From positions 1-60,489 of IMG/VR virus record IMGVR_UViG_3300037336_000242: a stretch of DNA of 60,489 nt. One strand, given 5' to 3'. The notes under the pieces were generated by a model. The model was given only the letters and a program-made list of their open reading frames with translations, was not told where the DNA came from and did not search any database. Source of the stretch: a virus. The translations under genes and the position numbers were made by a program. Shown piece after piece: positions 6,567 to 56,900 of this stretch (its first letter is position 1; every line of letters begins with the position of its first letter).

Positions 6567-9446
6567 TTATGCCGCTGCTTGCATGGCTTTTTTGGCCGCT
6601 GCTTTAACCAAGTCGAATGCTTGACCGACCAAATCATCTAATTCAGCGTTCGGGTTGGCTTCGAGTTCGGCATCCATGCGCTTCAATTCAGCTTGTACCG
6701 CCTTAATATCCGCTAGGGTTGCCAGTGGCGTTGCACCGCTAATAACGCTGTTTAGGTAGTCGGCATCGGGGCTTGTCGCTGGTACGTCTGGCTCTACCGC
6801 AGCAGGTACGGGCTGTGATAGACCTTTCACATAATCAACACCTGCTTTCGGCAAGTACATCAACCTGTTTGTAGGGGAAACCAAACTATCGACTAATTTG
6901 TAAAAACTAAAACCCAGCGGGGTATTATGCGGGCTTGTTTTTATCAGGGCGCGTAGTTCAATTAGTCGAATAGTGTCGGGGTGTTGCTTGTTACCAATAG
7001 GCGCTGACCGCTGCAACGACTCGTACTCTCTTGTAGTCGCATTGTTTTTGGCTGTATCAGGGCGCGTTAGCTCCTCTAATACCCAACCATCAGCCAATCT
7101 TTGATCAATAAGCTGTTTGTTTGTTGGTGCGCCGTCTTCATCGCTAGACTTGGCGCTTAGGTACTTCGTTTGACGCGCATCTTTTAATACATCCCCCTTT
7201 GAAGGCGCTACCACATCGGAATCATCCCCAATCAAGACCCCACTAGCACTAAACCCGCGATCAAAAAGCCATTTCGCCGCGCCCGATTTAGTTGTGAATT
7301 CTCTAAACTCAGTCGCTGTTGCCGCCATGATTTTACCATTACGCTGCAATGTACCGCTGCTTGTCTCGCCGTTGTAGCCGTCTTGCTGAATCTCCAGAAA
7401 AGGTGCAACTGCTTTTTGTGTATTGCCGCGTGCTTTTTCAGTATCAACCACACCTTGCATCTCTAAAAACTCAGCTTCTGTGCAACCTCGCCACTCAAGA
7501 ATACCGCTGACAATTTCCCGTTTACTTTTTCCAGCAATCTTCGTTGTGCCGGTGTAAGCGTCAAACACTTTACGGCTGATTTTGTTATCCGCGTCGGAAA
7601 AATAAGGCATGTGTTCTACCAATCCAGAATCGGTCTCCTCCATCGCCTTGATTCTTTCAATCATTAGGACCGTGTATCTAAATGATTGATCGTCGTTAGA
7701 GTGATCTAATGAGCTGGCTGATGCGATTGCAACACCCATCGCTTTTTTGAACTTTTCAACATCCATGCCTGCTGGGATTCTATCAATCCAGCTAGTGGTT
7801 TTTGCATCGGGCTGTGGCGCAATGGTTTTATTTGGGGCAATTAAATCACCTGTCATTGGGTTGGTACTCCAACCAGCGTTCAAAAGATCAATCAGTTTCT
7901 CGACCTTCTTTTCGCTCGAAATAACATAGCCACCTTGCACCCGCGACCATCGCCCGTTAATGCCTTTGGCTTCACATAATTGATTAATGCGAGTTCTTCC
8001 ACCGCCTTTACGTCTGTCAGATACGATCAAAACACCCTTAGCGTTGCGTTGCGGCTTGGTAATAACGTAGTTAATCGTTTGTCCATCGTACTCTTTGTAC
8101 TGCCCGTTATACGGCTTTTCATCACCAGCATTCCAGTCGTCAGCTTCGGCTTGTGTAACATCGTCAGACTCAGTCGCGGCGGGTGCGGGTCGGCTGTTTG
8201 CGGCATAGTGCTGCTCCGCTTCTTCACGGGTTGCAAACGACGCAATGCCCTCTGGTCGTACCGACAAAAACGGATATTTACCACCATCCTCAGAATCCCA
8301 CACGCCAGAGTAGCCCATAGGCGGCTTTTTGGATTGAACCACCGGCTTATCCAACTCAGCTTGCAGCACCACCATTTCAGCATCCAATCCCGCAATCGTC
8401 GCGCTGTGCTGTTCGATACGCCCGCTGACCTCGGTCAATTCCTGCGCGTTTTCGGCCTTTTTCGCATTGGTGCGGGTAAAGCGTGCGCTGTTTTGGTTTA
8501 CCAGCTTCATTATGCGAATAGCCAACACTGGCAACTGCACATCTTCACCTTGATTCGGCTGCACCGCCGCCGATACATCGCGGGCATTCAGTAGGATTTT
8601 CCAGCTAATCAGCGTATCGCCCGGCAGTAATTTTGACGGCGTAGAATCGGGATTGTGGAAAACAATAGAAACCGACTGACCATCTGAAACCTCAAAAATC
8701 GCGGCCACCTGCGTGACTTTATTGCGCTTGAAAGGCTCAGACTGGCGGTAGTTGCTGATCGTCAAGCCCCCGCCGGCGGCAGCATCCATAGCCTCAGACA
8801 AGAGTTGCATCAGCTTGTCCAGACGACGGTTTTCTACGATGATCGCATCGTAGCCCATCATTTCAGCACCAAGCCACTCAAGCATCGCGGGCATATCATC
8901 GGCTTTCATCGCATCGAATAGCTGCGAATCATCGTCATGTTTAACCAGATCAAGTAGTAGAGTAGCCGTGCTGCCACCGTGTGACTTTAGATTGATACCG
9001 TCCCACATCGCGGGTTGCATCGTGGTGACATCCTGCAAGGCCAGCAGGTTTTTGCTGTATACCGGCAAGTTATCGCGTGGATTTAGTTTTTCGCTGTTTA
9101 GATAGCGCATCAAACCTTTTCCATTCGACTCAGTAACCGCCTGCACTTCACAGCTATCAAAAAACCGCCCGTATTGGCTCTGTACCCACTCGACCGCCTG
9201 ATCAGCGTCTAACGCGCCAATGACCGCTACAGCGTCGAATAACGCGCCTGTAGCACCCTTAGACTTCAAGTTGACCACTTGCCATAGATCGGCATCGGTA
9301 GCCGTAGGCGATAGCAGGGCGTCGATCATGCGGCATTGGCCGACAATATGCCCAACTGCTAGATTTGAATAGATGTTATCGAAGCCTGGCACGCGGCGGC
9401 TAGTGCGTGGGGCGTGGGCTTGCACAAAAATGCTTGTGTTGGACAC
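6567..9446 (-). CDS. Large polyvalent-type protein, about 959 aa
   Basis: Large multidomain protein. The N-terminal ~300 residues contain LFDA/FFDS/LFDAM segments like the MFDSM motif of other virion proteins here. A conserved-looking segment QPNQGEDVQLPVLAIRIM is followed by a coiled-coil-like stretch (roughly residues 320-370), an arrangement I associate with phage anti-restriction/injected proteins (DarA-like), but I cannot confirm it. The middle has KGVLIVSDRRKGGGRTRI and other small domains not recognised. No ATG start exists; GTG at 9446 has a Shine-Dalgarno-like GGAAAA at suitable distance and is preferred over TTG at 9458. Confidence 0.65.
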   Translation of the reverse strand: MSNTSIFVQAHAPRTSRRVPGFDNIYSNLAVGHIVGQCRMIDALLSPTATDADLWQVVNLKSKGATGALFDAVAVIGALDADQAVEWVQSQYGRFFDSCEVQAVTESNGKGLMRYLNSEKLNPRDNLPVYSKNLLALQDVTTMQPAMWDGINLKSHGGSTATLLLDLVKHDDDSQLFDAMKADDMPAMLEWLGAEMMGYDAIIVENRRLDKLMQLLSEAMDAAAGGGLTISNYRQSEPFKRNKVTQVAAIFEVSDGQSVSIVFHNPDSTPSKLLPGDTLISWKILLNARDVSAAVQPNQGEDVQLPVLAIRIMKLVNQNSARFTRTNAKKAENAQELTEVSGRIEQHSATIAGLDAEMVVLQAELDKPVVQSKKPPMGYSGVWDSEDGGKYPFLSVRPEGIASFATREEAEQHYAANSRPAPAATESDDVTQAEADDWNAGDEKPYNGQYKEYDGQTINYVITKPQRNAKGVLIVSDRRKGGGRTRINQLCEAKGINGRWSRVQGGYVISSEKKVEKLIDLLNAGWSTNPMTGDLIAPNKTIAPQPDAKTTSWIDRIPAGMDVEKFKKAMGVAIASASSLDHSNDDQSFRYTVLMIERIKAMEETDSGLVEHMPYFSDADNKISRKVFDAYTGTTKIAGKSKREIVSGILEWRGCTEAEFLEMQGVVDTEKARGNTQKAVAPFLEIQQDGYNGETSSGTLQRNGKIMAATATEFREFTTKSGAAKWLFDRGFSASGVLIGDDSDVVAPSKGDVLKDARQTKYLSAKSSDEDGAPTNKQLIDQRLADGWVLEELTRPDTAKNNATTREYESLQRSAPIGNKQHPDTIRLIELRALIKTSPHNTPLGFSFYKLVDSLVSPTNRLMYLPKAGVDYVKGLSQPVPAAVEPDVPATSPDADYLNSVISGATPLATLADIKAVQAELKRMDAELEANPNAELDDLVGQAFDLVKAAAKKAMQAAA

Positions 9447-9480
9447 GGTTTTTTCCAAAATGCAATGAATGGCCTATCTT

Positions 9481-9510
9481 GCGTAGGCGTGGGCGTGGGC
9501 GTGGCGTAGG
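9481..9510. repeat. GGGCGT-type short tandem repeat
   Basis: Five imperfect hexamers of the form GGCGT(A/G) in the non-coding gap upstream of the 9446 gene, directly next to a GGAACC element. Possible protein-binding array or slippage product. Confidence 0.5.
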
Positions 9511-9518
9511 GTTCCGTT
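9510..9518 (-). promoter_or_regulatory. Late-operon GGAACC element (AACGGAACC)
   Basis: Copy of the phage-wide GGAACC word, 64 bp before the GTG of the 959-residue gene; see the late-promoter finding. Confidence 0.5.
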
Positions 9519-9551
9519 TGAGAAAGATTGAAAAATAATTGACGAAAGGTG

Positions 9552-9580
9552 TTGACGGTTACGGATAACCGAGTTACATT
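9552..9580 (+). promoter_or_regulatory. Promoter with embedded palindromic operator
   Basis: TTGACG at 9552-9557, 17-bp spacer, TACATT at 9575-9580. The spacer contains the perfect inverted repeat GGTTA-CGGA-TAACC (9557-9570), placed where a repressor would block RNA polymerase. It drives the 9661 gene and possibly read-through towards the CRISPR locus. Confidence 0.7.
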
Positions 9581-9660
9581 AGCTTCAACAGGACGGCAAC
9601 GGACTGTAGGGGATCACCCCGTAGTGACTTGGCACTGACAACCAAGATTAGGAAATCATC

Positions 9661-10467
9661 ATGCCAAAACAAGCAATCGTCACCCCAAAACCTGTTGTCC
9701 TCACCATCGAGCAATTGCAAGCAATGAGCTGGACTTGTGTGTCTCACTCTGTTGACACCGTAGAATGCGATCAAGAAACAGTCATTGTTGGCATCGAATA
9801 TGACGAAGAAGGCAATGAAGTTGACGTTGAGCGCGAGTATTTCAATCGCTACGCATACGGCACTGCAACAATGCGGGCGGGCGAAAATCCAGCGGTTGAA
9901 ATCTCATTTACATGGGAGGCCGGCCATGAGGAAAAACACAGCTATGAAGATAGCTTTGATTTTGACTTGTGCGTTCACGCTGACAGTGAAATCAAGCTGA
10001 CAGGCTGCAATCTGGTCGATGAGGATGGTGATGCAGTAGAGGGCTGGGAACTAGGCCATGCACTGACCGAAATCGCAGCGGGTTGCGAATGGGAGGCCAT
10101 GGTTCGCGCCGACCTGCCAATACCTGAAACCGAAGTGCTGGAAACGGCAACCGAAGGGCAAGACATCACTGTATGGCGCGATAACGCCCCTGAAATCGCA
10201 TTTAAAGGCGCATGTATTGGCGGCGCGTCAAGCCGTAGTCAGTACAACGACAACGGACGCTGGACAGACCTGTATCTGTACCAGACCGTAGGCGGCAAGT
10301 TTGTCTGCTACGAGCGCAATAATTCGCAGTGGCAAGGCGAGCGCACCAAGCACAAAGCCGAAGTCTGCACCAACCACGCCGAAGTCGTTGCATGGTTCGG
10401 TCAAGGCCGTGTAGCCAAAGAACTGTATGCAGACGCTGGCATCAGCAACGTGCAAGTGATCGACTAA
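9661..10467 (+). CDS. Hypothetical acidic protein, 268 aa
   Basis: First gene of the plus-strand accessory cassette. It is acidic and soluble, with no signal peptide. The C-terminal third (WTDLYLYQTVGGKFVCYERN and following) looks like a compact separate domain. It has its own promoter and operator upstream and a terminator downstream, so it is a self-contained unit between the late genes and the cas operon. No family recognised; the position would suit an accessory 'moron' function or a partner of the CRISPR system. Confidence 0.8.
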   Translation: MPKQAIVTPKPVVLTIEQLQAMSWTCVSHSVDTVECDQETVIVGIEYDEEGNEVDVEREYFNRYAYGTATMRAGENPAVEISFTWEAGHEEKHSYEDSFDFDLCVHADSEIKLTGCNLVDEDGDAVEGWELGHALTEIAAGCEWEAMVRADLPIPETEVLETATEGQDITVWRDNAPEIAFKGACIGGASSRSQYNDNGRWTDLYLYQTVGGKFVCYERNNSQWQGERTKHKAEVCTNHAEVVAWFGQGRVAKELYADAGISNVQVID

Positions 10468-10486
10468 TCAGACACACAAAAGCCAA

Positions 10487-10515
10487 AAGCCTAGCCGCGT
10501 GCTGGGCTTTTTTTA
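10487..10515 (+). terminator. Rho-independent terminator
   Basis: AAGCCTAGC and GCTGGGCTT form a nine-pair stem with one G-T pair around CGCGT, followed by seven T. It ends exactly where the first diverged CRISPR repeat begins. Confidence 0.85.
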
Positions 10516-10774
10516 TATCTCGGATTCGGGATTGGTCAAGCCAAACAACAACACCCTAGCTTCAAAGCTTAGTATCCCGTCACGCGGGATTGGTCGGAGC
10601 GTATGCTTTGCCCGTTCAGCAACATGATGGTATCCCGTCACACGCTGGATTATTCGATGATGATCTGGCTGGACTACCACCAAGATTCAGCATCTCGGAT
10701 TCGGGATTGGTCGGAATCACTGCCAAATGATTGGGGCAGCAAGACTGCATCCCGTAACACATGGGATTGGACTA
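10515..10774 (+). CRISPR. Diverged five-repeat CRISPR array upstream of the cas operon
   Basis: Five repeat-like elements begin at 10515, 10572, 10630, 10690 and 10747. Elements are 25-28 nt, but the four intervals (10540-10571, 10598-10629, 10658-10689, 10715-10746) are each exactly 32 nt, the spacer length of the main array. The elements keep ATC(C/T)CG...CGGGAT-type arms with different loops (GATT, CAC) and paired changes such as GT/AT in the last one; the third is the weakest. Most end in GGATTGGTC(G/A), the handle also seen in repeats 6-7 of the main array and in the lone repeat at 56875. There is no AT-rich leader. It ends 19 bp before the first gene of the operon. Confidence 0.8.
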
Positions 10775-10793
10775 GGTTTTACAAGGCACCGAC

Positions 10794-10994
10794 ATGGCAA
10801 TGACCAACAGAGAAAAGCAAGCCGCCTACCGCAAGCGAAACGCGGGGCTGATTGTAAAGGCGGTAATCACGCCACAGGCAAAAGAAGCACTTGATCGATT
10901 GGTTGCGGTTGAACCTACGCAATCACAAGGGCAAGTGATCAGTGAAGCATTGATACAGTTTAAGGACGGGAAAGATGAAAATGACACCGTTTAA
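10794..10994 (+). CDS. Small ribbon-helix-helix-like regulator, 66 aa
   Basis: The C-terminal part, LIVKAVITPQAKEALDRLV followed by a second helix with SEALIQF, has the strand-helix-helix spacing of ribbon-helix-helix DNA-binding proteins; the N-terminus is basic. It is the first gene of the type IV cas operon, overlaps csf3 by 20 nt, and follows the diverged array by 19 bp. It is therefore a good candidate autoregulator of the cas operon. It could be read as an antitoxin, but no toxin gene accompanies it. Confidence 0.65.
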   Translation: MAMTNREKQAAYRKRNAGLIVKAVITPQAKEALDRLVAVEPTQSQGQVISEALIQFKDGKDENDTV

Positions 10995-11619
10995 AGTCAC
11001 CTGCCACGTCGCCACCCCAATGCAGCTAGGCAGCCACCCGCTGCACCTAGACGGCTTGCTGTACTGGTTGGCTATCGAGCATCAAGCTGATGCACAAGAC
11101 GTGCTAGACGTTTGCCTAGACCAACAGGCGGGTATCTATAAAGCAAGCGCCTTGTGCTTTGCCCCACAGCCGCTAGAAATCGTCACCACCCGCGCCGCGT
11201 CGCATCCAACCTGCTGGAAATGGAATGAGTTTAGCCTGCCAACAAGCGCAAAAACCATTGTGCAAAAAGGTGGGCCGTACCGGTCGAGAATGACCAGCTA
11301 CACTGCCTACCAATGCAGCCAAGTCGTGTTTTTTGGCGTAGGCGATATGACCAAGATTCAGGCGTTACTGTCCACATGCAATGGTCTAGGTCGCAACAGC
11401 AACCAAGGTTGGGGCGAAATAACCGCGATTGAAATCGAGCCGATGGATCAGGATTGTTCGTGGTTTATGGATGATCAGATCATGCGGACGCTACCGCTGG
11501 ACTTAATCCCAAGCAACACAGATACAAGCCACGCGCTGCAAGGACTGGCAAGCATTGCACCGCCTTACACCACCACCGCCAAACAAGCCACACAATCCCC
11601 CGTTTTTCTAAAGGTATAA
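10975..11619 (+). CDS. csf3: Type IV CRISPR-Cas Csf3 (Cas5-like)
   Basis: 214-residue RAMP-fold protein of the type IV effector complex; Cas5-like subunits cap the 5' handle of the crRNA. Supporting features are the N-terminal 'MQLGSHPLHLDGLLYW' type opening of Csf3 proteins, a glycine-rich loop GLGRNSNQGWGEI near residue 140, and the position next to csf2. An ATG at 10981 is an alternative start. Expression is coupled to the small regulator by overlap. Subunit assignment rests on motifs and gene order, not on a search. Confidence 0.8.
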   Translation: MKMTPFKVTCHVATPMQLGSHPLHLDGLLYWLAIEHQADAQDVLDVCLDQQAGIYKASALCFAPQPLEIVTTRAASHPTCWKWNEFSLPTSAKTIVQKGGPYRSRMTSYTAYQCSQVVFFGVGDMTKIQALLSTCNGLGRNSNQGWGEITAIEIEPMDQDCSWFMDDQIMRTLPLDLIPSNTDTSHALQGLASIAPPYTTTAKQATQSPVFLKV

Positions 11620-11623
11620 CGCT

Positions 11624-12610
11624 ATGAAAACAATCTTTTTCGCTGGCAAAATCAAAACCGTATCACCGGTTGCCGTGACCGTTCCCGATACCGTCGGCAT
11701 GCCAAAAGATAGCGCCGGTAACGCCTATCTGCCTGCAAATAGCATCCGTGGCAAGTTGCGCCACAGCCTGCATGAAGCAATCGCACGCCATTATGCAGAT
11801 CAAGGCAAGCCGCTTACAGTCGATCAGCATTACATGCTTGGTAGTGGCGTAGACACAGCACGCGCACTGAAAGATACCAGCAGCAACATCGGTGCAAATA
11901 CCGCACGCCGCGCCGCCAATCCAGTATTGTCGGTTTTTGGCAATTGGGGCTTGGCTGGCAAGTTAGGCGTGGGCAGCGGCTACACTGGCACAAAGGCGGT
12001 TATTCACGGCGCGGGCGTTCGTAAGCACGTCGGCAAGGAGTGGCTAGATCAAATAATCGACCTATCGGAAATCGACTACTTAACCGAAATCCTAAGCCAA
12101 GACGGGCAAACCAGCCAAGACTCGCAACCGATCAAAGACCGCCAAAAACTGCTCAAGCGTGAACTGAAAGGCGCGGACGCTACCCGCAAAACCGAAATCA
12201 ATACTGAGCTGGCAGACCTTGATCAGCAGCTACGCGAACTCAAAGACTTGCGCACTGGGGCAAGCGAAAGCATCCAACGCCCGCTAGAAGGTTTTGAGGT
12301 GATCGACCACGGCACAACCATGCCGCACCGCATGATCTTAAAGAACCCAACAGACACCGAGCTACACACGGTGTTACTGAGCATTGCAGCGTGGGCGTAT
12401 GAGCCGATGATTGGTGGGCATCACAATCTTGGGTGCGGCAATATCGACGCAGAATGGGAAATCTACGAACAAGCATTTTTGTCGAATGCGCGTACCAAAA
12501 TTGGCACGGTCGGATTTAATGAAACGGGCTTTTTTGTCGAAGGCATTGTGTTTGATGCAGCGGCAACACTGCAACACATCACCACTGATTTTGACTTGGC
12601 ACAGGTATAA
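11624..12610 (+). CDS. csf2: Type IV CRISPR-Cas Csf2 (Cas7-like backbone)
   Basis: 328-residue Cas7-family protein that would form the helical backbone along the crRNA. It has the RAMP signature YLPANSIRGKLRHSLHEAI near residue 40, then FEVIDHGTTMPHRMIL and the glycine/histidine-rich GGHHNLGCGN near residue 270. A charged helical insertion (about residues 170-210) is probably the peripheral lobe. AAAGG lies before the start codon, and the gene follows csf3 by 4 bp and precedes csf1 by 2 bp. Confidence 0.85.
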   Translation: MKTIFFAGKIKTVSPVAVTVPDTVGMPKDSAGNAYLPANSIRGKLRHSLHEAIARHYADQGKPLTVDQHYMLGSGVDTARALKDTSSNIGANTARRAANPVLSVFGNWGLAGKLGVGSGYTGTKAVIHGAGVRKHVGKEWLDQIIDLSEIDYLTEILSQDGQTSQDSQPIKDRQKLLKRELKGADATRKTEINTELADLDQQLRELKDLRTGASESIQRPLEGFEVIDHGTTMPHRMILKNPTDTELHTVLLSIAAWAYEPMIGGHHNLGCGNIDAEWEIYEQAFLSNARTKIGTVGFNETGFFVEGIVFDAAATLQHITTDFDLAQV

Positions 12611-12612
12611 CC

Positions 12613-13359
12613 ATGAATGCCATCTTAGGCGCACGGCTTCGCGCAACTTTCGCGCCTGAAATGGCGAATGAAGCCCCACAAGATTGTAATTCAGACTGTG
12701 AAAACTGCGGGCGTAAGCCGTCGGAATATGGCGGCGTGGCGTATGTCAGCACGGACAGCTACAAGCGGCAATTGGCACACTGTCCCGATTGCCGACCGAT
12801 CAGCATTCAAGCCCCACAGACGCTAGGGATTGCGATTGAACCCGCTACGGGCTTTACCCTTGCCACATTCAAAGGCGGTTACTTGGTTGTCCCTGCGACT
12901 GACAAGCCATCACTACTTGTATCTGGCAAGTACCCTGCCAAAATCCACCAACACGCGGTTGACGTGGTGCCGCTTGGTGGACACGCTGCTAAAGCATGGT
13001 TATTCAGCAATCACCAAGCCGATAGCTATGTGTTAGAGCTATCGCCACGGCGTGAACGGTTTAGCCGCCATGCCATGCCATGTGACCATAATCACTTGGT
13101 GATTGCCACTACAAGCGGCGCGGCAAAAATCAGCCTATCTGACTGGCAAAATAGCCGTGACGCGCTACGCGGCATCGCCAAATACAAAGACGTGATCAGC
13201 TTGGCGCGTGGACTCACAGAGGGGCGCTTGCACTTGTCCAGCGACAAGGTACAAGCGGCATTAACACCCGAAATCATGGCGGTTTTATCCGCACTACCTA
13301 AAGACCCCATTTCGCGCTGTTTCGTGTTAGACGCGCTCAGTGGCTTGGAGGCTGTATGA
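12613..13359 (+). CDS. csf1: Type IV CRISPR-Cas Csf1 (large-subunit-like, zinc ribbon)
   Basis: 248-residue protein with an N-terminal zinc ribbon, CENC...HCPDC, the hallmark of Csf1, the type IV counterpart of the Cas8 large subunit. Its TGA overlaps the ATG of the next gene (ATGA at 13356). It lacks nuclease motifs, as expected for a type IV complex that acts without a Cas3 nuclease. Confidence 0.8.
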   Translation: MNAILGARLRATFAPEMANEAPQDCNSDCENCGRKPSEYGGVAYVSTDSYKRQLAHCPDCRPISIQAPQTLGIAIEPATGFTLATFKGGYLVVPATDKPSLLVSGKYPAKIHQHAVDVVPLGGHAAKAWLFSNHQADSYVLELSPRRERFSRHAMPCDHNHLVIATTSGAAKISLSDWQNSRDALRGIAKYKDVISLARGLTEGRLHLSSDKVQAALTPEIMAVLSALPKDPISRCFVLDALSGLEAV

Positions 13360-13886
13360 ATCACTTATTTGCACTAAAGCCGCACAATGAAGCGCACAAG
13401 GCGGTTATGGCTGTTTTGCACAAGACAGGGCAAGACTGGAAAACCAAAGGCACGCGCAAAATTCAGTTTGCCAATCTTGGCAGCCTGATCTTGGTTCGCA
13501 CCAATCAGCAGCCAACAGGCATCCCGTGCAAAGCAGATGCGCCGGTATTCAGCACAGGCCAACGCCTAACGCTACAGGTCATCCTACCCGCACAAAAACG
13601 GGCGCGGGACTACCGCACAGCACCCGCAATCCGCACACAGTCAGAAATGAATGATCTTGCATCGGCATTGCTTGCTGAAAATGGCTTGTCTGTGGATAGC
13701 ATCGAGGGCAAGCCAGCACATTCTGCTTTTTTCAAAAAAGACGGTCGGACAACGGTTATTGCTGCAATGCACTTTGTCGCCACCGCCACCGTTACCGACC
13801 CGCAAGCCCTTGCGATTGCCTATACCCAAGGCGTCGGCCGCGAGAAATCGTTAGGGTTTGGCATGCTCATTGTGAAGGAGGTTTGA
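13356..13886 (+). CDS. cas6: Cas6-family crRNA endonuclease of the type IV system
   Basis: 176-residue RAMP protein ending in the Cas6 glycine-rich loop GVGREKSLGFGML. Cas6 enzymes cut at the base of the repeat hairpin to give crRNAs. Several histidines in the first 25 residues could supply the general base. Translation is coupled to csf1. The same enzyme is the obvious reader of the diverged upstream repeats and of the lone repeat at 56875, since all keep a hairpin with ATCCCG/CGGGAT-type arms. Csf5 and Cas6e would be equivalent names; the subfamily is not resolved here. Confidence 0.82.
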   Translation: MNHLFALKPHNEAHKAVMAVLHKTGQDWKTKGTRKIQFANLGSLILVRTNQQPTGIPCKADAPVFSTGQRLTLQVILPAQKRARDYRTAPAIRTQSEMNDLASALLAENGLSVDSIEGKPAHSAFFKKDGRTTVIAAMHFVATATVTDPQALAIAYTQGVGREKSLGFGMLIVKEV

Positions 13887-13888
13887 TT

Positions 13889-15796
13889 ATGTTTGATCTA
13901 GTTAAAAAGGCGTTCGCGCCGACTGGTTTTTTGGTCGAGCAAGGCGGGCGGCATACGCCAGAACAAGGCAACTACGCGCTATCCGTAGCCGTAACCCTGC
14001 TATCACAAGGCAAGATGAATCTAAGCCTGTTAGAAGCTGAAACAGGCGTAGGAAAGTCGCTAGGCTACCTGATTCCTAGCTTGATCTGGTTGGCTCAAAA
14101 TCCCAAAAAACAGATTGTGGTCAGCACGTTTACCCGCGCACTGCAAAAGCAATTGATCGACGAAGATGCACAGAAAGCCTGTCAGTTTTTGGTAGCCAGT
14201 GGCTTGCCCGCTGTTAAGGTCGCCTACAGAATGGGCAAGGCTTCGTTTTTCTCAATTGATCGTGTGGCACTCCTGATTGCTGAAATTCAAACCGAACAAA
14301 ACAAGGCTTTGCTGCATGAGTTTTACCAGTACGCGCTGCATTCAGCATCACATGGTTCTGGCCTGTGGCGTGACTGGATCGACGAACACGGGCAGTTTCC
14401 ATGCGACATTAGCCCCAACAGCATCGGCTTGATTGGCGACCAAACCAGCATCGCTTATGAAGCGCATCTGACCGCGTCCAAAGAAGCCCAACTGCTGATC
14501 ACCAATCACGCCACCATGCTGATTGCAGTTAGCCGCAAAATCCTAGACCTTGATCGGGTTCACGCCATTATTTTTGATGAAGCACACGAACTCGAAGCAG
14601 CGGCCAAAAGTTTCTTAAACACCCGCCTAAACTTTACCGAGCTACTGAGCAAGACGCACGGTATGGATGGACACGCCGCAATCGCTGACTTACTAAAACA
14701 GTGGACAGAGGATCTATCCAGCCACGTCAACAAAAGCCTGATCAATAGCGAACACCCCGCGCTTATGCTACAGCAGCAGGGCAACGCTGAAAAACTGCTT
14801 GACCTGCTAAAAGGCACGCTAGGCAAACTAAGCACCAAGCAACGCAAGGCCGACTCTGGCATCGAGCTTGCCGAACTTGTCGAGCGAGTCGGTTCGTGGT
14901 GCGCCGGTGCGGAAAGCACGCAGCGTAAGGCAATCGCGTTTTCTGACAAAAAGTCTATTCCTAGCCTTGCGATGGTTTCGAGTGCGGCCGCGCCTTTCCT
15001 ACGCAATCTGTTTGAGCAACTGAATAGCAATGTGATTATGACCAGTGCAACACTGGCAGATATGCAGCCGCAAACATCGTTTTTTAACATCAAATTCAGT
15101 GCAGGTTTGCGTGACTTTACAATCTGCCAAGAACGGCGTTATAGCCCTAATCAGTACGGCACAATGACATTCGCAGTCACTGAGTATGAAGGCGGTATCT
15201 TTAGCGGTAAAAGTGACGATGAAGCTGATGAAGTTTGCTACAGCGCGGCATGGCTCAAGCAAACAGCAGAAACAATCATGTCAAGCCGTGGCAAGACGCT
15301 AGTGCTGGTTCCGTCATTTCGTGAGGCCAAGTTATTGGCGGGTTTGTTGCCAAAAGATCAGGTGATTTGTCACCAGCCAAACCAGCCAAACTACCAAGTC
15401 ACACAGACGTTAATCAGTGGCGATAGTCGTATCCTCATTACGCCGTCATGCTGGGAAGGGGTCAATATCCGCAATGCCGACGGTTCGCAGGTTTTAGAGA
15501 CGATTGTGATTAGCCGCATTCCCTACGCGCCGCCTGATTTGGTGCGCCTTACTGCACTGAGCAACTACCTAAAGGACAAGTCAGAGGCAAACAAAATCAT
15601 CCATCTAATGTCACGCCAAGCCGCGTTACGCAAGGTCAAGCAGGGTATTGGGCGCGGCATTCGTAGCCCAAATGATCGGGTGCATGTAGTCTTTTGCGAC
15701 CCGCGCATCAAGGCGGCGCGGCATGCAATCCCTAAGCGGTTTGTGGCGGCGTTTGATCTGGCAGTCAACAAGGGTAAAATCACCAATGTTTTTTAG
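13889..15796 (+). CDS. dinG: Type IV CRISPR-associated DinG-like helicase (Csf4)
   Basis: 635-residue superfamily 2 helicase of the XPD/DinG group, the accessory helicase that defines subtype IV-A-like loci and unwinds targeted DNA. Walker A is ETGVGKS (about residue 48), the DEAH box is IIFDEAHE (about residue 230) and motif VI is QGIGRGIRS near the C-terminus. Only two cysteines lie between motifs I and II, so the four-cysteine iron-sulphur cluster of housekeeping DinG is absent, as is usual for the CRISPR version. The start at 13889 is chosen for the strong GAAGGAGG eight bases upstream. Confidence 0.88.
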   Translation: MFDLVKKAFAPTGFLVEQGGRHTPEQGNYALSVAVTLLSQGKMNLSLLEAETGVGKSLGYLIPSLIWLAQNPKKQIVVSTFTRALQKQLIDEDAQKACQFLVASGLPAVKVAYRMGKASFFSIDRVALLIAEIQTEQNKALLHEFYQYALHSASHGSGLWRDWIDEHGQFPCDISPNSIGLIGDQTSIAYEAHLTASKEAQLLITNHATMLIAVSRKILDLDRVHAIIFDEAHELEAAAKSFLNTRLNFTELLSKTHGMDGHAAIADLLKQWTEDLSSHVNKSLINSEHPALMLQQQGNAEKLLDLLKGTLGKLSTKQRKADSGIELAELVERVGSWCAGAESTQRKAIAFSDKKSIPSLAMVSSAAAPFLRNLFEQLNSNVIMTSATLADMQPQTSFFNIKFSAGLRDFTICQERRYSPNQYGTMTFAVTEYEGGIFSGKSDDEADEVCYSAAWLKQTAETIMSSRGKTLVLVPSFREAKLLAGLLPKDQVICHQPNQPNYQVTQTLISGDSRILITPSCWEGVNIRNADGSQVLETIVISRIPYAPPDLVRLTALSNYLKDKSEANKIIHLMSRQAALRKVKQGIGRGIRSPNDRVHVVFCDPRIKAARHAIPKRFVAAFDLAVNKGKITNVF

Positions 15797-15911: not shown

Positions 15912-16299
15912 GTATCCCGTCAGGTGCGGGATTTAGCGGAAAACATACGCCCGCAAACTGGCAAACAAGGCGTATCCCGTCAGGTGCGGGATTTAGCGGA
16001 AAAGTGACTTGATTGTCACTGTTACCCTTTTGTATCCCGTCAGGTGCGGGATTTAGCGGAGTGTTAAGGCGTTACAAGACCAACGACTCTAGTATCCCGT
16101 CAGGTGCGGGATTTAGCGGTTGTCGAAGCATTCAGGTTGCCAGAGTGCAAAGTATCCCGTCAGGTGCGGGATTTAGCGGAACTGGTAGATTTGGTCGGGT
16201 TCGATCGGTTGGTATCCCGTTAGGTACGGGATTGGTCGGTCTTGTCCTTCACCAAGTCGAGCGTAACCCGCGTATCCCGTCGTGTACGGGATTGGTTGC
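15912..16299 (+). CRISPR. Main CRISPR array: seven 28-nt repeats, six 32-nt spacers
   Basis: Repeats start every 60 bp at 15912, 15972, 16032, 16092, 16152, 16212 and 16272. Repeats 1-5 are identical (GTATCCCGT...GCGGGATTTAGCGG) and form an ATCCCGT/GCGGGAT hairpin. Repeats 6 and 7 differ in the loop and carry the handle ATTGGTCGG or ATTGGTTGC. All six spacers are 32 nt. Spacer 2 contains the inverted repeat AGTGAC/GTCACT. The array ends 3 bp before the stop codon of the convergent phage gene. No cas1 or cas2 is present, so acquisition must rely on a host system. Confidence 0.97.
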
Positions 16300-45324: not shown

Positions 45325-45460
45325 TTCAGCCACCCAATAAATGCGAACAAATGGGGTGGCGAGTTAAGTGGAATTCGCATTATCAGTCACTAGGCTACTG
45401 ACGCATCCGAGGATGCTTCCACCTAACCCGCCAAAACGGGTATGAAACCATTTTCAGCAC
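45325..45460 (-). promoter_or_regulatory. Antirepressor leader with targets for the c4-like RNA
   Basis: Between the c4-like RNA and ant. It holds GCCTAGTGACT (minus 45395-45385) and GGATGCG (minus 45408-45402), complementary to two c4 segments, plus a GCATCC/GGATGC hairpin and a GCCACCC/GGGTGGC pairing close to the ribosome binding site. A short 18-codon frame starts near 45446. Confidence 0.7.
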
Positions 45461-45488
45461 ACACGCTAAAAAATGACTCAAGATAGGC

Positions 45489-45566
45489 AATAAAAAACCG
45501 CTTACGCGGCCTTTCGGCCTAGTGACTTTGCAGGATGCGAAACCTGACACCCGATTTTGCGGGTGC
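45489..45566 (-). ncRNA. c4: c4-like antisense RNA controlling the antirepressor
   Basis: Starts at the promoter below, folds a CACCCG/CGGGTG hairpin, shows CGCATCC (45539-45533) and AGTCACTAGGC (45527-45517) in open segments, and ends at a terminator (CCGC-GTAA-GCGG and T6). Both open segments are perfectly complementary (7 and 11 nt) to the leader of ant downstream, in the same order, the way c4 of P1/P7 silences its antirepressor transcript. Confidence 0.82.
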
Positions 45567-49537: not shown

Positions 49538-49588
49538 AAAACACCCCTTTTGGCTTCATCATCGGTGCCTAGCCACCACGCTAGACAG

Positions 49589-49613
49589 ATGCCCCACGGT
49601 AATTATGGGGCAT
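49589..49613. terminator. Hairpin after the HU gene
   Basis: ATGCCCCA and TGGGGCAT arms around a nine-base loop. Only a short T-run follows on either strand, so termination is uncertain. Confidence 0.4.
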
Positions 49614-49622
49614 TTCGATTGA

Positions 49623-50608: not shown

Positions 50609-51177
50609 CACGGTACATGCTCCATAGAATTAAAAAAATCATCCGAGTAGCGATAGTGGATCTCGCCTGACGCATCTTTATAGACTTGGACGGGCGGTCT
50701 ACCGTCATCACGCGCGATGCCGGCAGGCTTTGCTGTCCCGATCAACTCATTTCGATCTGCCCAATCTTGAGCAACTTGCCCTGTGATCCAACTACTGTCT
50801 ACAGTAACATGTTCGGAATACAACATTCTTAGTCCTGCATCTTTGTCATCAGCATCGCGATAAAACACCGACCCGATACCCGCTTTAACGATCAACTCAG
50901 CACACTTGATGCAGGGCTGGCGCGTGACGTACAGTGTCCCGCCCACAGTGTCCTCGAGTGACCCAAAAACCGCATTGATCGCCATAGCCTCAGCATGCAC
51001 TACTGTTGCAAGCGTGCGACCGTCTGCGCCCTCGCAGCACTCTAGCTTGTCGTCATTGCGATTGTATCCAGTGTATTTTTCACTCAAAACACTGACCACC
51101 GCCCCGACCTGCGCACGCTTGCAGACAGACTTGAGCGCGATAGACTCAGCGAGTCGCATCATTTCGATATGATTCAT
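50608..51177 (-). CDS. dCMP/cytidine deaminase-family protein, 189 aa
   Basis: Zinc motifs HAEAMAIN and PCIKCAELIVKAGI identify the deoxycytidylate deaminase family, which makes dUMP for thymidylate synthesis; with the kinase next door it forms a dTTP-supply pair. Start at 51177 is set by ATGA overlap with the upstream gene. The C-terminal ~70 residues are an extension beyond the core. Confidence 0.87.
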   Translation of the reverse strand: MNHIEMMRLAESIALKSVCKRAQVGAVVSVLSEKYTGYNRNDDKLECCEGADGRTLATVVHAEAMAINAVFGSLEDTVGGTLYVTRQPCIKCAELIVKAGIGSVFYRDADDKDAGLRMLYSEHVTVDSSWITGQVAQDWADRNELIGTAKPAGIARDDGRPPVQVYKDASGEIHYRYSDDFFNSMEHVP

Positions 51178-52037
51178 GTAGTCGCACCTCGAACCATTCC
51201 GCAATCCCCCATACACTCAAACGACGGCTCAGAATCGGGCAGGTCAAATAGACTGACTTGTCCAGCACTTGCCTTTAATGCTGATTTTTTTGCATTCGCC
51301 CAAAAACGACCGCTAGGAATGTGTTCAGTAGCCGGAACGCCAGCGGCTTGCATAGCAGAAAACACGCCCTCTTTATCTTCAAAAAAACCATCTGCGTGTA
51401 CGCTGTATCCAATCTCAGCTTCTGCCCACTTGGCTTTTTGCCAAATTTCGGGAAATTCGCAAAAAATGATATACCAGTGCTGCCAGCCAGCTTTTAGACA
51501 GCCTATGCAGTTAGCATGTGCAAACTTGCTGTATTGCTGCGGACGCGCAATCCCCACCTGCATCGTGCTTGTGATCGTCCGATTTTTCCACGTCAGCAGC
51601 GGAAAGTCGGTTTCATAGCCAGACTTGCCCATCATCGCCGCACGTCGAACAATTCGGGTCGGCTCGTTGGCATCCATGCCGTAGTAGTAAATATCGCCGT
51701 CCTGATGATTCTCAGAAATCCAGTTGTAAAAAGGCTGTGTTTTTAGTCGGTGCGTACACAAGATTGTGCGATTGGCTGGATTAACAAACGACTTAGCATC
51801 AACGCACACATCAAACTGATCTTTTGTGTCCCAGTGCGAGTGATTGGCATATGTGATCGGCAGGCCAAGATACTCAGATACCTCACGCTTAAAGCGCTTC
51901 ACGTCTGCGTCTTCGCTAGTTACGATAATGTCGTGATTCAGCAAAATCACATTTTCAGCGCCAAATTTACGCACAACCTCAATCGCTACAATTGCGCTTG
52001 AGTGTCCACCGCTAAAACAAACAATATGCTTACTCAT
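51174..52037 (-). CDS. PAPS reductase-like PP-loop protein, 287 aa
   Basis: N-terminal SGGHSSA PP-loop for ATP, then RTILCTHRLKTQPFYNWI and a C-terminal cysteine set (NCIGCLKAG; CMGDCG) that could hold a metal cluster. Family members activate substrates by adenylation in sulphate assimilation, thiolation or DNA modification. In phages the substrate is generally unknown; the neighbouring deaminase suggests nucleotide or DNA modification. Confidence 0.8.
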   Translation of the reverse strand: MSKHIVCFSGGHSSAIVAIEVVRKFGAENVILLNHDIIVTSEDADVKRFKREVSEYLGLPITYANHSHWDTKDQFDVCVDAKSFVNPANRTILCTHRLKTQPFYNWISENHQDGDIYYYGMDANEPTRIVRRAAMMGKSGYETDFPLLTWKNRTITSTMQVGIARPQQYSKFAHANCIGCLKAGWQHWYIIFCEFPEIWQKAKWAEAEIGYSVHADGFFEDKEGVFSAMQAAGVPATEHIPSGRFWANAKKSALKASAGQVSLFDLPDSEPSFECMGDCGMVRGATT

Positions 52038-56472: not shown

Positions 56473-56774
56473 GATTGCACCCCCAACAATTCCTTTCCCG
56501 CGTCGGTTAGACGCCATCCCTGTGGCAGTTCGCCATCGCCTTTAACCAGCCCCATCAGTGCAAAACCGTTTAGATACCGCTGCACACTACGAAGTGTGTA
56601 CTGATTCCCACTTTTTGTTAGTGAGTCGCGTAGGTCTACCGTGCTCATACGCGACGGATGACCCGCTTTAAGCAAAACCAGCATTGCAACCAGTCGCGCT
56701 GTAATCGCAGTTGTTGAACAATCGCGGGTGGTTGTCGCTAAGCGACTTGGTATTGCTTTAATGACTGCATTCAT
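56469..56774 (-). CDS. Winged-helix protein, 101 aa
   Basis: Residues 30-85 read as a winged helix (LVAMLVLLKAGHPSRMSTV, then SVQRYLNGFALMGLV). Probably an early regulator or initiator accessory. First complete leftward gene after the lone CRISPR repeat. Confidence 0.65.
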   Translation of the reverse strand: MNAVIKAIPSRLATTTRDCSTTAITARLVAMLVLLKAGHPSRMSTVDLRDSLTKSGNQYTLRSVQRYLNGFALMGLVKGDGELPQGWRLTDAGKELLGVQS

Positions 56775-56874: not shown

Positions 56875-56900
56875 GACCAATCCCGCAAAGCGCGGGATAC
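56875..56900 (-). CRISPR. Solitary CRISPR repeat in the early leftward transcript
   Basis: Minus strand GTATCCCGC...GCGGGATTGGTC, a 26-nt unit with a perfect seven-pair stem (ATCCCGC/GCGGGAT) and loop GCTTT. It is the same family as the repeats at 10515-10774 and 15912-16299 and carries their older handle GGATTGGTC. No second repeat occurs 60 bp to either side. Confidence 0.85.

Follow-up and report, generated by a model that had tools for sequence, protein, structure and literature searches.

The phage genome and its CRISPR operon

The window analyzed here, 60,489 bases, corresponds to a whole virus record. The presence of portal, sheath, and baseplate families together with a DarA-like protein identifies it as a P1-like myophage. 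Its portal was nearest to those of Acinetobacter phage-plasmids and phage ABMM1 (42-49% identity), so its host probably lies in or near Acinetobacter. An Acinetobacter oleivorans phage-plasmid has other cargo beside the portal-adjacent gene, with no CRISPR operon annotated there. Phages related at the CRISPR locus were sought in the viral_contigs collection using Cas7, DinG, Cas5, a Cas7 alignment, and the repeat pattern, and none was found. Elsewhere in the window, all on the minus strand, we found Rfam matches to isrK and the C4 antisense RNA (45352-45566) that precede a gene for an anti-repressor, a type II hammerhead ribozyme that exceeds the gathering score (49548-49620), and a phosphoadenosine phosphosulfate reductase-like gene (phrog_424; 51174-52037).

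The CRISPR locus comprises, besides the secondary array detailed below, the following features.

9552-9580, plus strand: best sigma70-like promoter candidate (TTGACG-17-TACATT) upstream of the secondary array, preceding the 268-aa gene
9661-10467, plus strand: predicted 268-aa gene upstream of the secondary array
10485-10511, plus strand: terminator-like hairpin with T-run, 3 nt before the first repeat
10794-10994, plus strand: 66-aa ORF, first of the operon, putatively ribbon-helix-helix-like
10975-11619, plus strand: csf3 (Cas5 of type IV)
11624-12610, plus strand: csf2 (Cas7 of type IV)
12613-13359, plus strand: csf1 (Cas8 of type IV-A)
13356-13886, plus strand: Cas6 (Cas6e/Csf5-like), with invariant His14 and a G-rich loop
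13883-15796, plus strand: Csf4 (CasDinG helicase)
15912-16299, plus strand: main array, seven 28-nt repeats (M1 to M7) with 32-nt spacers; M6 and partly M7 with the handle type of the secondary array

The operon is type IV-A, with csf1, csf2, csf3, cas6, and dinG all found. Its gene order, csf3-csf2-csf1-cas6-dinG (10975-15796), was absent among 18 type IV loci examined for comparison (labeled by L numbers; csf2 was located in 17 of them, all except L069). All 11 relatives in which the five cas genes were located (L002 to L012) have the order csf1-cas6-dinG-csf3-csf2, and thus the phage operon is permuted. Two further loci, L024 and L071, likewise begin with csf3-csf2-dinG, and csf1 was located in neither. 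A second csf3-csf2 pair lies by tetratricopeptide-repeat genes, with small arrays nearby, on a plasmid of Acinetobacter TGL-Y2 (L023; NZ_CP015111.1, 9413-11106), and a similar csf3-csf2-tetratricopeptide arrangement was seen in L026. In the phage Cas6, His14 and the glycine-rich C-terminus are invariant across all seven aligned Cas6 proteins; by analogy with Cas6e, we take this histidine to be the catalytic residue, and the encoded enzyme looks intact at the sequence level. The 66-aa ORF that opens the operon has strand-helix-helix spacing, a subthreshold RepA match (E value of 0.0056), and a low-confidence structure model; a PDB sequence search and a fold search with that model found no match. 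We tentatively read it as ribbon-helix-helix-like.

A secondary array precedes the operon

Between the terminator-like hairpin and the 66-aa ORF, positions 10515-10774 of the plus strand hold five repeat-like hairpins (R1 to R5) separated by four spacers (S1 to S4).

10515-10539, plus strand: repeat R1, 25 nt, loop of 4 nt, stem with a C-to-T wobble
10540-10571, plus strand: spacer S1, 32 nt
10572-10597, plus strand: repeat R2, 26 nt, stem unchanged
10598-10629, plus strand: spacer S2, 32 nt
10630-10657, plus strand: repeat R3, 28 nt, stem with a single C x U mismatch, diverged handle
10658-10689, plus strand: spacer S3, 32 nt
10690-10714, plus strand: repeat R4, 25 nt, core same as R1
10715-10746, plus strand: spacer S4, 32 nt
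10747-10774, plus strand: repeat R5, 28 nt, G.U wobble, ending 19 nt before the ATG at 10794

The initial annotation, made from the sequence alone, had described four spacers of exactly 32 nt and an end 19 bp before the first operon gene, and both statements hold; the geometry is that of the main array, with an arm-to-arm distance between hairpins of 41 nt in all four gaps of the secondary array and all six of the main one. When the whole window was scanned with the repeat consensus, a score of at least 17 was reached only by R1 to R4, M1 to M7, and one minus-strand element at 56900. The chance expectation, from 60 Markov-shuffled windows, was 0.13 sites per window at score 17, with none higher, and R1 to R4 are therefore individually beyond chance. 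R5 scored 16, a level at which ca. 1.2 sites per window are expected and which two more off-array sites reach, and the case for it therefore rests on its exact position. An Rfam run on the window returned no CRISPR family at the gathering score, and CRISPR-DR4 was without a match.

The elements share with accepted arrays a single repeat family, regular spacing, and unique spacers. Their repeats are not near-identical, which is also partly the case for accepted type IV-A arrays such as that of L012. A 5' leader is absent: R1 begins 3 nt past the predicted terminator, which leaves no room for one. The initial annotation had the array following a terminator without a leader; the second part stands, while the hairpin itself is only suggestive of a terminator, as such structures occur at chance frequency here (two in the region versus 1.8 in shuffles). 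A leader is needed for spacer gain, not for guide use.

Repeat drift and constraint on the stems

As had been claimed, the five repeats differ strongly, by a mean of 8.4 edits between pairs versus 3.3 in the main array, although R1 and R4 have a common core and the five are thus not five independent lineages. Across the six core stem pairs, R2 is unchanged; R1, R4, and R5 have a one-sided change to a wobble; and one pair is broken in R3. The idea that the hairpins were kept through paired changes was not borne out, with zero two-sided changes in these six pairs of R1 to R5. The sole two-sided variation in the repeat family concerns the seventh, loop-closing pair, which is U-A in M6, M7, and R5 versus C-G in the solitary element described below.

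The stems are nevertheless under constraint. Taking R1 to R5, M6, and M7, with the consensus standing for the ancestor and R1 and R4 related rather than independent, 4 of 84 stem positions were changed versus 13 of 63 other non-loop positions, i.e., pre-stem and handle (Fisher P = 0.004). Stems came out misplaced when the repeats were aligned with MAFFT, and that alignment did not enter these counts. Changes in length are confined to loops, with none in the 128 spacer positions. On folding, four of the five repeats (R1, R2, R4, and R5) formed an uninterrupted stem of six to seven pairs, a hairpin suited to Cas6e-type cutting, and R3 did so only with its mismatch; its fold is weakened (-3.2 kcal/mol), and 112 of 200 shuffles were at least as good. 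The argument that random decay would not preserve spacer length to the base is sound in direction, with the qualification that this pattern is not peculiar to the locus (see below).

The handles give some indication of relative age. R2 and R4 carry TTGGTCGG, which is the handle of M6 and nearly that of M7, whereas M1 to M5 carry TTTAGCGG. M6 is leader-distal and therefore an older repeat of the main array, and the shared handle suggests that the secondary array predates the newer half of the main one. The trailer repeats M6 and M7 are drifted as well. A search with the main-array spacers against plasmids found no match.

A solitary repeat in the early region

The minus-strand element recovered by the whole-window scan belongs to the same family.

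56900-56873, minus strand: solitary repeat R6, GTATCCCG-7-CGGGATTGGTCAA

Its hairpin (-11.7 kcal/mol) was the strongest among those folded. R6 lies upstream of a replication-initiation gene or operon, between a 75-aa ORF (57309-57082), cro-like by position and in our own reading, and an ORF starting at 56774. A Cas6-type site would thus be present in the early transcript of the phage. We considered R6 as a guide source and discarded the idea: a second strong hairpin, terminator-like on the plus strand, follows ca. 11 nt after the handle, so a 32-nt guide is unlikely. The partial matches of R6 elsewhere are unremarkable by eye. Hairpins of the form ATCCCG-CGGGATT were sought in four related records and gave a single match, in one of them (W01).

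Transcription and spacer targets

The promoter candidate at 9552-9580 lies within the top 0.02% of window positions when scored with a sigma70 matrix. The best candidate inside the array, spanning S2 and R3, is equaled by 0.2% of window positions and is not convincing. Since the strongest promoter-like site stands before the 268-aa gene and the array-internal one is weak, we would favor read-through from the former into the array and operon. The 268-aa gene has distant relatives on three plasmids, with no CRISPR annotated in the three plasmid stretches covered.

Comparison of S1 to S4 with phage and plasmid sequences and with the putative promoter region of the operon itself, as suggested in the initial annotation, gave nothing of note. 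No protospacer worth mentioning was found in phage sequences, none was matched in plasmids, and gapped-seed patterns of S2, S3, and S4 had zero matches in viral_contigs. A resemblance of S4 to Vibrio phage primase genes (26 nt at 92%) had an E value of 0.8 and was taken as chance. Within the window, the best full self-targets of the four spacers reached 19 to 20 of 32 positions, equal to shuffled spacers. Against 9400-10830, the longest seed runs were 5 to 7, while shuffled spacers reached 8 to 9, and seed complementarity to the main leader was likewise not above chance. Allowing a free sixth base, only S2 gave a 9-of-10 site, a single one at 10406 on the minus strand that falls within the 268-aa gene, and the main-array spacers M1, M3, and M6 also gave 9-of-10 sites in the operon region.

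A long fold hinted that S1 might sequester the ribosome site, which we rejected, since 67% of random 32-mers bind as well. In the uncut leader of the mRNA, the ribosome site was 0.39 unpaired versus 0.43 ± 0.13 in shuffled leaders. Thus, regulatory readings based on guides or on occlusion gain no positive support from the seed and occlusion tests made here.

Arrays of related type IV systems

Drifted repeats, variable loops, and near-constant 32-nt spacers are common in related type IV-A arrays. Among the nine arrays chosen as input for the gap-length tally (L002, L004 to L010, and L012), gaps of exactly 32 nt made up 17 of 17 in L006, 12 of 12 in L007, 7 of 7 in L002, 11 of 12 in L004, 10 of 12 in L009, 9 of 12 in L008, 15 of 20 in L012, 4 of 6 in L005, and 1 of 5 in L010. 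The last 16 repeats of L012 differ by a mean of 7.0 edits, near the 8.4 of the secondary array. The L012 array as a whole (7873-9190), type IV-A with at least 21 strongly diverged repeats, has variant hairpins that recur non-adjacently and some compensatory stem changes.

A leaderless array within or before the operon is rare but not unique. Only 1 of the 18 type IV loci, L025, had an array that stands immediately 5' to a cas gene and runs in the same direction. That array (8999-9317) begins 17 nt past cas6 and ends in a diverged element whose first base is at 9289; the start of csf2 is at 9340, and the phage layout therefore has a precedent. Profiles confirmed cas6, csf2, dinG, and csf3 at this locus, and its last ORF, of 341 aa, was without a profile match. 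L025 has two arrays on the same strand, the leaderless one between cas6 and csf2 and another (14235-15054) after the last operon ORF. An array also lies upstream of csf1 in L004, with repeats that we read as oppositely oriented, and no array was detected in L011, L026, or L071.

Interpretation

The reading that we hold with moderate confidence is that the type IV-A system of the phage has here a genuine secondary array, leaderless, co-transcribed, frozen, and predicted to be still fit for Cas6 processing. It builds on the anatomy, the exact spacing, the stem constraint, the presence of Cas6 and effector genes, and the precedents among relatives. The array lies 5' of the cas operon on the same strand, and the simplest assumption is joint transcription: either transcripts begun at the promoter of the 268-aa gene would pass through the terminator, or a weak promoter within the array would be used. 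Cas6 would cleave every hairpin at its base to give four guide RNAs that each carry a spacer of 32 nt and a handle of 8 nt; by analogy with the family, these guides would load into the Csf complex for DinG-dependent silencing of targets. Most type IV systems are without adaptation genes. Having no leader, the secondary array can no longer gain spacers; the repeats would drift because nothing copies them any more, while processing and loading would hold stems and spacer length. Divergence of the repeats would also shield the guides from loss by recombination between them. Cutting of the cas mRNA near its 5' end would be a probable side effect, and negative feedback by Cas6 is conceivable. Of the two possibilities that the initial annotation had left side by side, an old array on which Cas6 still acts accords best with the stem constraint, the exact spacing, the intact-looking Cas6, and the arrays in relatives, whereas the tests of a crRNA-like regulator (seed, self-target, and occlusion) were negative.

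The main rival, unlikely in our judgment yet the one to be taken most seriously, is a plain relic: an array tail cut off from its leader, neither transcribed nor used, and still tidy since decay of phage DNA is mainly by substitution. The missing leader, the lack of a convincing promoter, the terminator in front, the broken stem of R3, and the absence of protospacers for S1 to S4 all fit with it, as does the drift of M6 and M7 at the trailer end of the main array. It accounts poorly for stem positions changing less than flanking ones and for length changes being found in loops and not in spacers, and a compact phage genome might be expected to shed 260 bases that serve no purpose ahead of an operon. 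Regulatory guides seem improbable. With CreR as the model, one or more partly complementary spacers could bring the type IV complex to the promoter of the cas operon and so repress it, and CreR and CreA loci do look like degenerate repeats beside a cas operon, according to the available parts of the reports (PMC12737573, PMC8501985). Type IV-A is described in the accessible part of another source as silencing without cutting, so self-targeting might be tolerated (PMC11519345). Against this, the seed runs of S1 to S4 fall below those of shuffled spacers, the single S2 site has counterparts among main-array spacers, four guides would be many, and the text available (PMC12737573) describes CreR from types I and V-A.

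An action at the level of the mRNA, in which Cas6 binds and cuts the 5' region of its own operon and so limits Cas synthesis while the spacers remain passive, strikes us as no better a candidate. The 19 nt between R5 and the first ORF, the similar layout shortly before csf2 in L025, and the lone Cas6-type hairpin in the early region would suit it, but nothing in it calls for four spacers of exactly 32 nt, and the exposure of the ribosome site is ordinary compared with shuffled leaders. Still less credible, to the point of being very improbable, is that the palindromes are DNA operators for the protein of the first ORF. Inverted repeats do stand upstream of a putative DNA-binding protein gene, but the asymmetric handle is common to the main array, their spacing is the array period, and neither PDB sequence nor fold searches support the ribbon-helix-helix assignment. 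A broader proposal, likewise a long shot, is that Cas6-type repeats form a phage regulon in which the five elements and R6 are cut or bound by Cas6, linking Csf levels to the lytic/lysogenic switch, with the four spacers as fixed, recombination-proof guides.

What is new in this locus is the combination, in one phage, of a leaderless 5' position, strong repeat drift, and a lone second element. If the frozen, co-transcribed array is what we have here, a leaderless array joined to the operon at its 5' end, with drifted repeats and intact geometry, would amount to a fixed set of guides safe from recombination, and Cas6 cutting and Cas expression would be physically joined on one RNA. Through R6 in the early region, CRISPR processing might also be tied to the life cycle of the phage. 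Being small and self-contained, the locus is open to direct testing.

Comparison with known systems

In the titles and abstract openings of the literature covered, a leaderless array 5' of a type IV operon was not described; the main type IV survey lies outside this scope, and we do not claim absence. The closest counterparts are the arrays of type IV-A plasmids (IV-A3 of Klebsiella and relatives; L006, L008, L009, and L012), which share Cas6e-type hairpins, 32-nt spacers, and drifted repeats with loop-length variants. They differ in that theirs lie after csf2, whereas the phage's second, leaderless array precedes the operon, and in gene order (csf1-cas6-dinG-csf3-csf2, not the csf3-first order of the phage). 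The array of L025, from the type IV locus of genome G265, is the nearest in layout, being leaderless and placed immediately before a cas gene in the same orientation, with its last element diverged; unlike that of the phage, it stands between cas6 and csf2, its repeats are only mildly drifted, and its last gap is short (ca. 18 nt).

Arrays of type VII without adaptation genes often have many repeat substitutions, according to the available text (PMC12669027), and resemble the secondary array in both respects; they serve another effector, and a 5' position within the operon is not mentioned in that portion of the source. Degeneration of repeats is stated in the accessible part of another report to protect against recombination between them (PMC9458426). 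CreA and CreR RNAs are known to contain degenerate repeats that lie outside arrays, as far as the available parts of the sources go (PMC8501985, PMC9458426, PMC12737573). With these mini-CRISPRs, which in published cases can be processed by Cas6, the phage array shares degenerate repeats that flank spacers away from the main array and beside the cas operon. They have only one repeat or two and are partly complementary to a promoter nearby, while the phage has five repeats and complementarity at chance over 9400-10830, the putative promoter region.

For R6, the obvious parallel is with solitary viral repeat units, which are able to act as RNA anti-CRISPRs (Racr) in the account available (PMC10651486) and are likewise single repeats in a phage genome. 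R6 departs from them in that the sole promoter-like site called near it on its strand is upstream of the cro-like ORF, and in that this phage itself encodes the matching CRISPR system.
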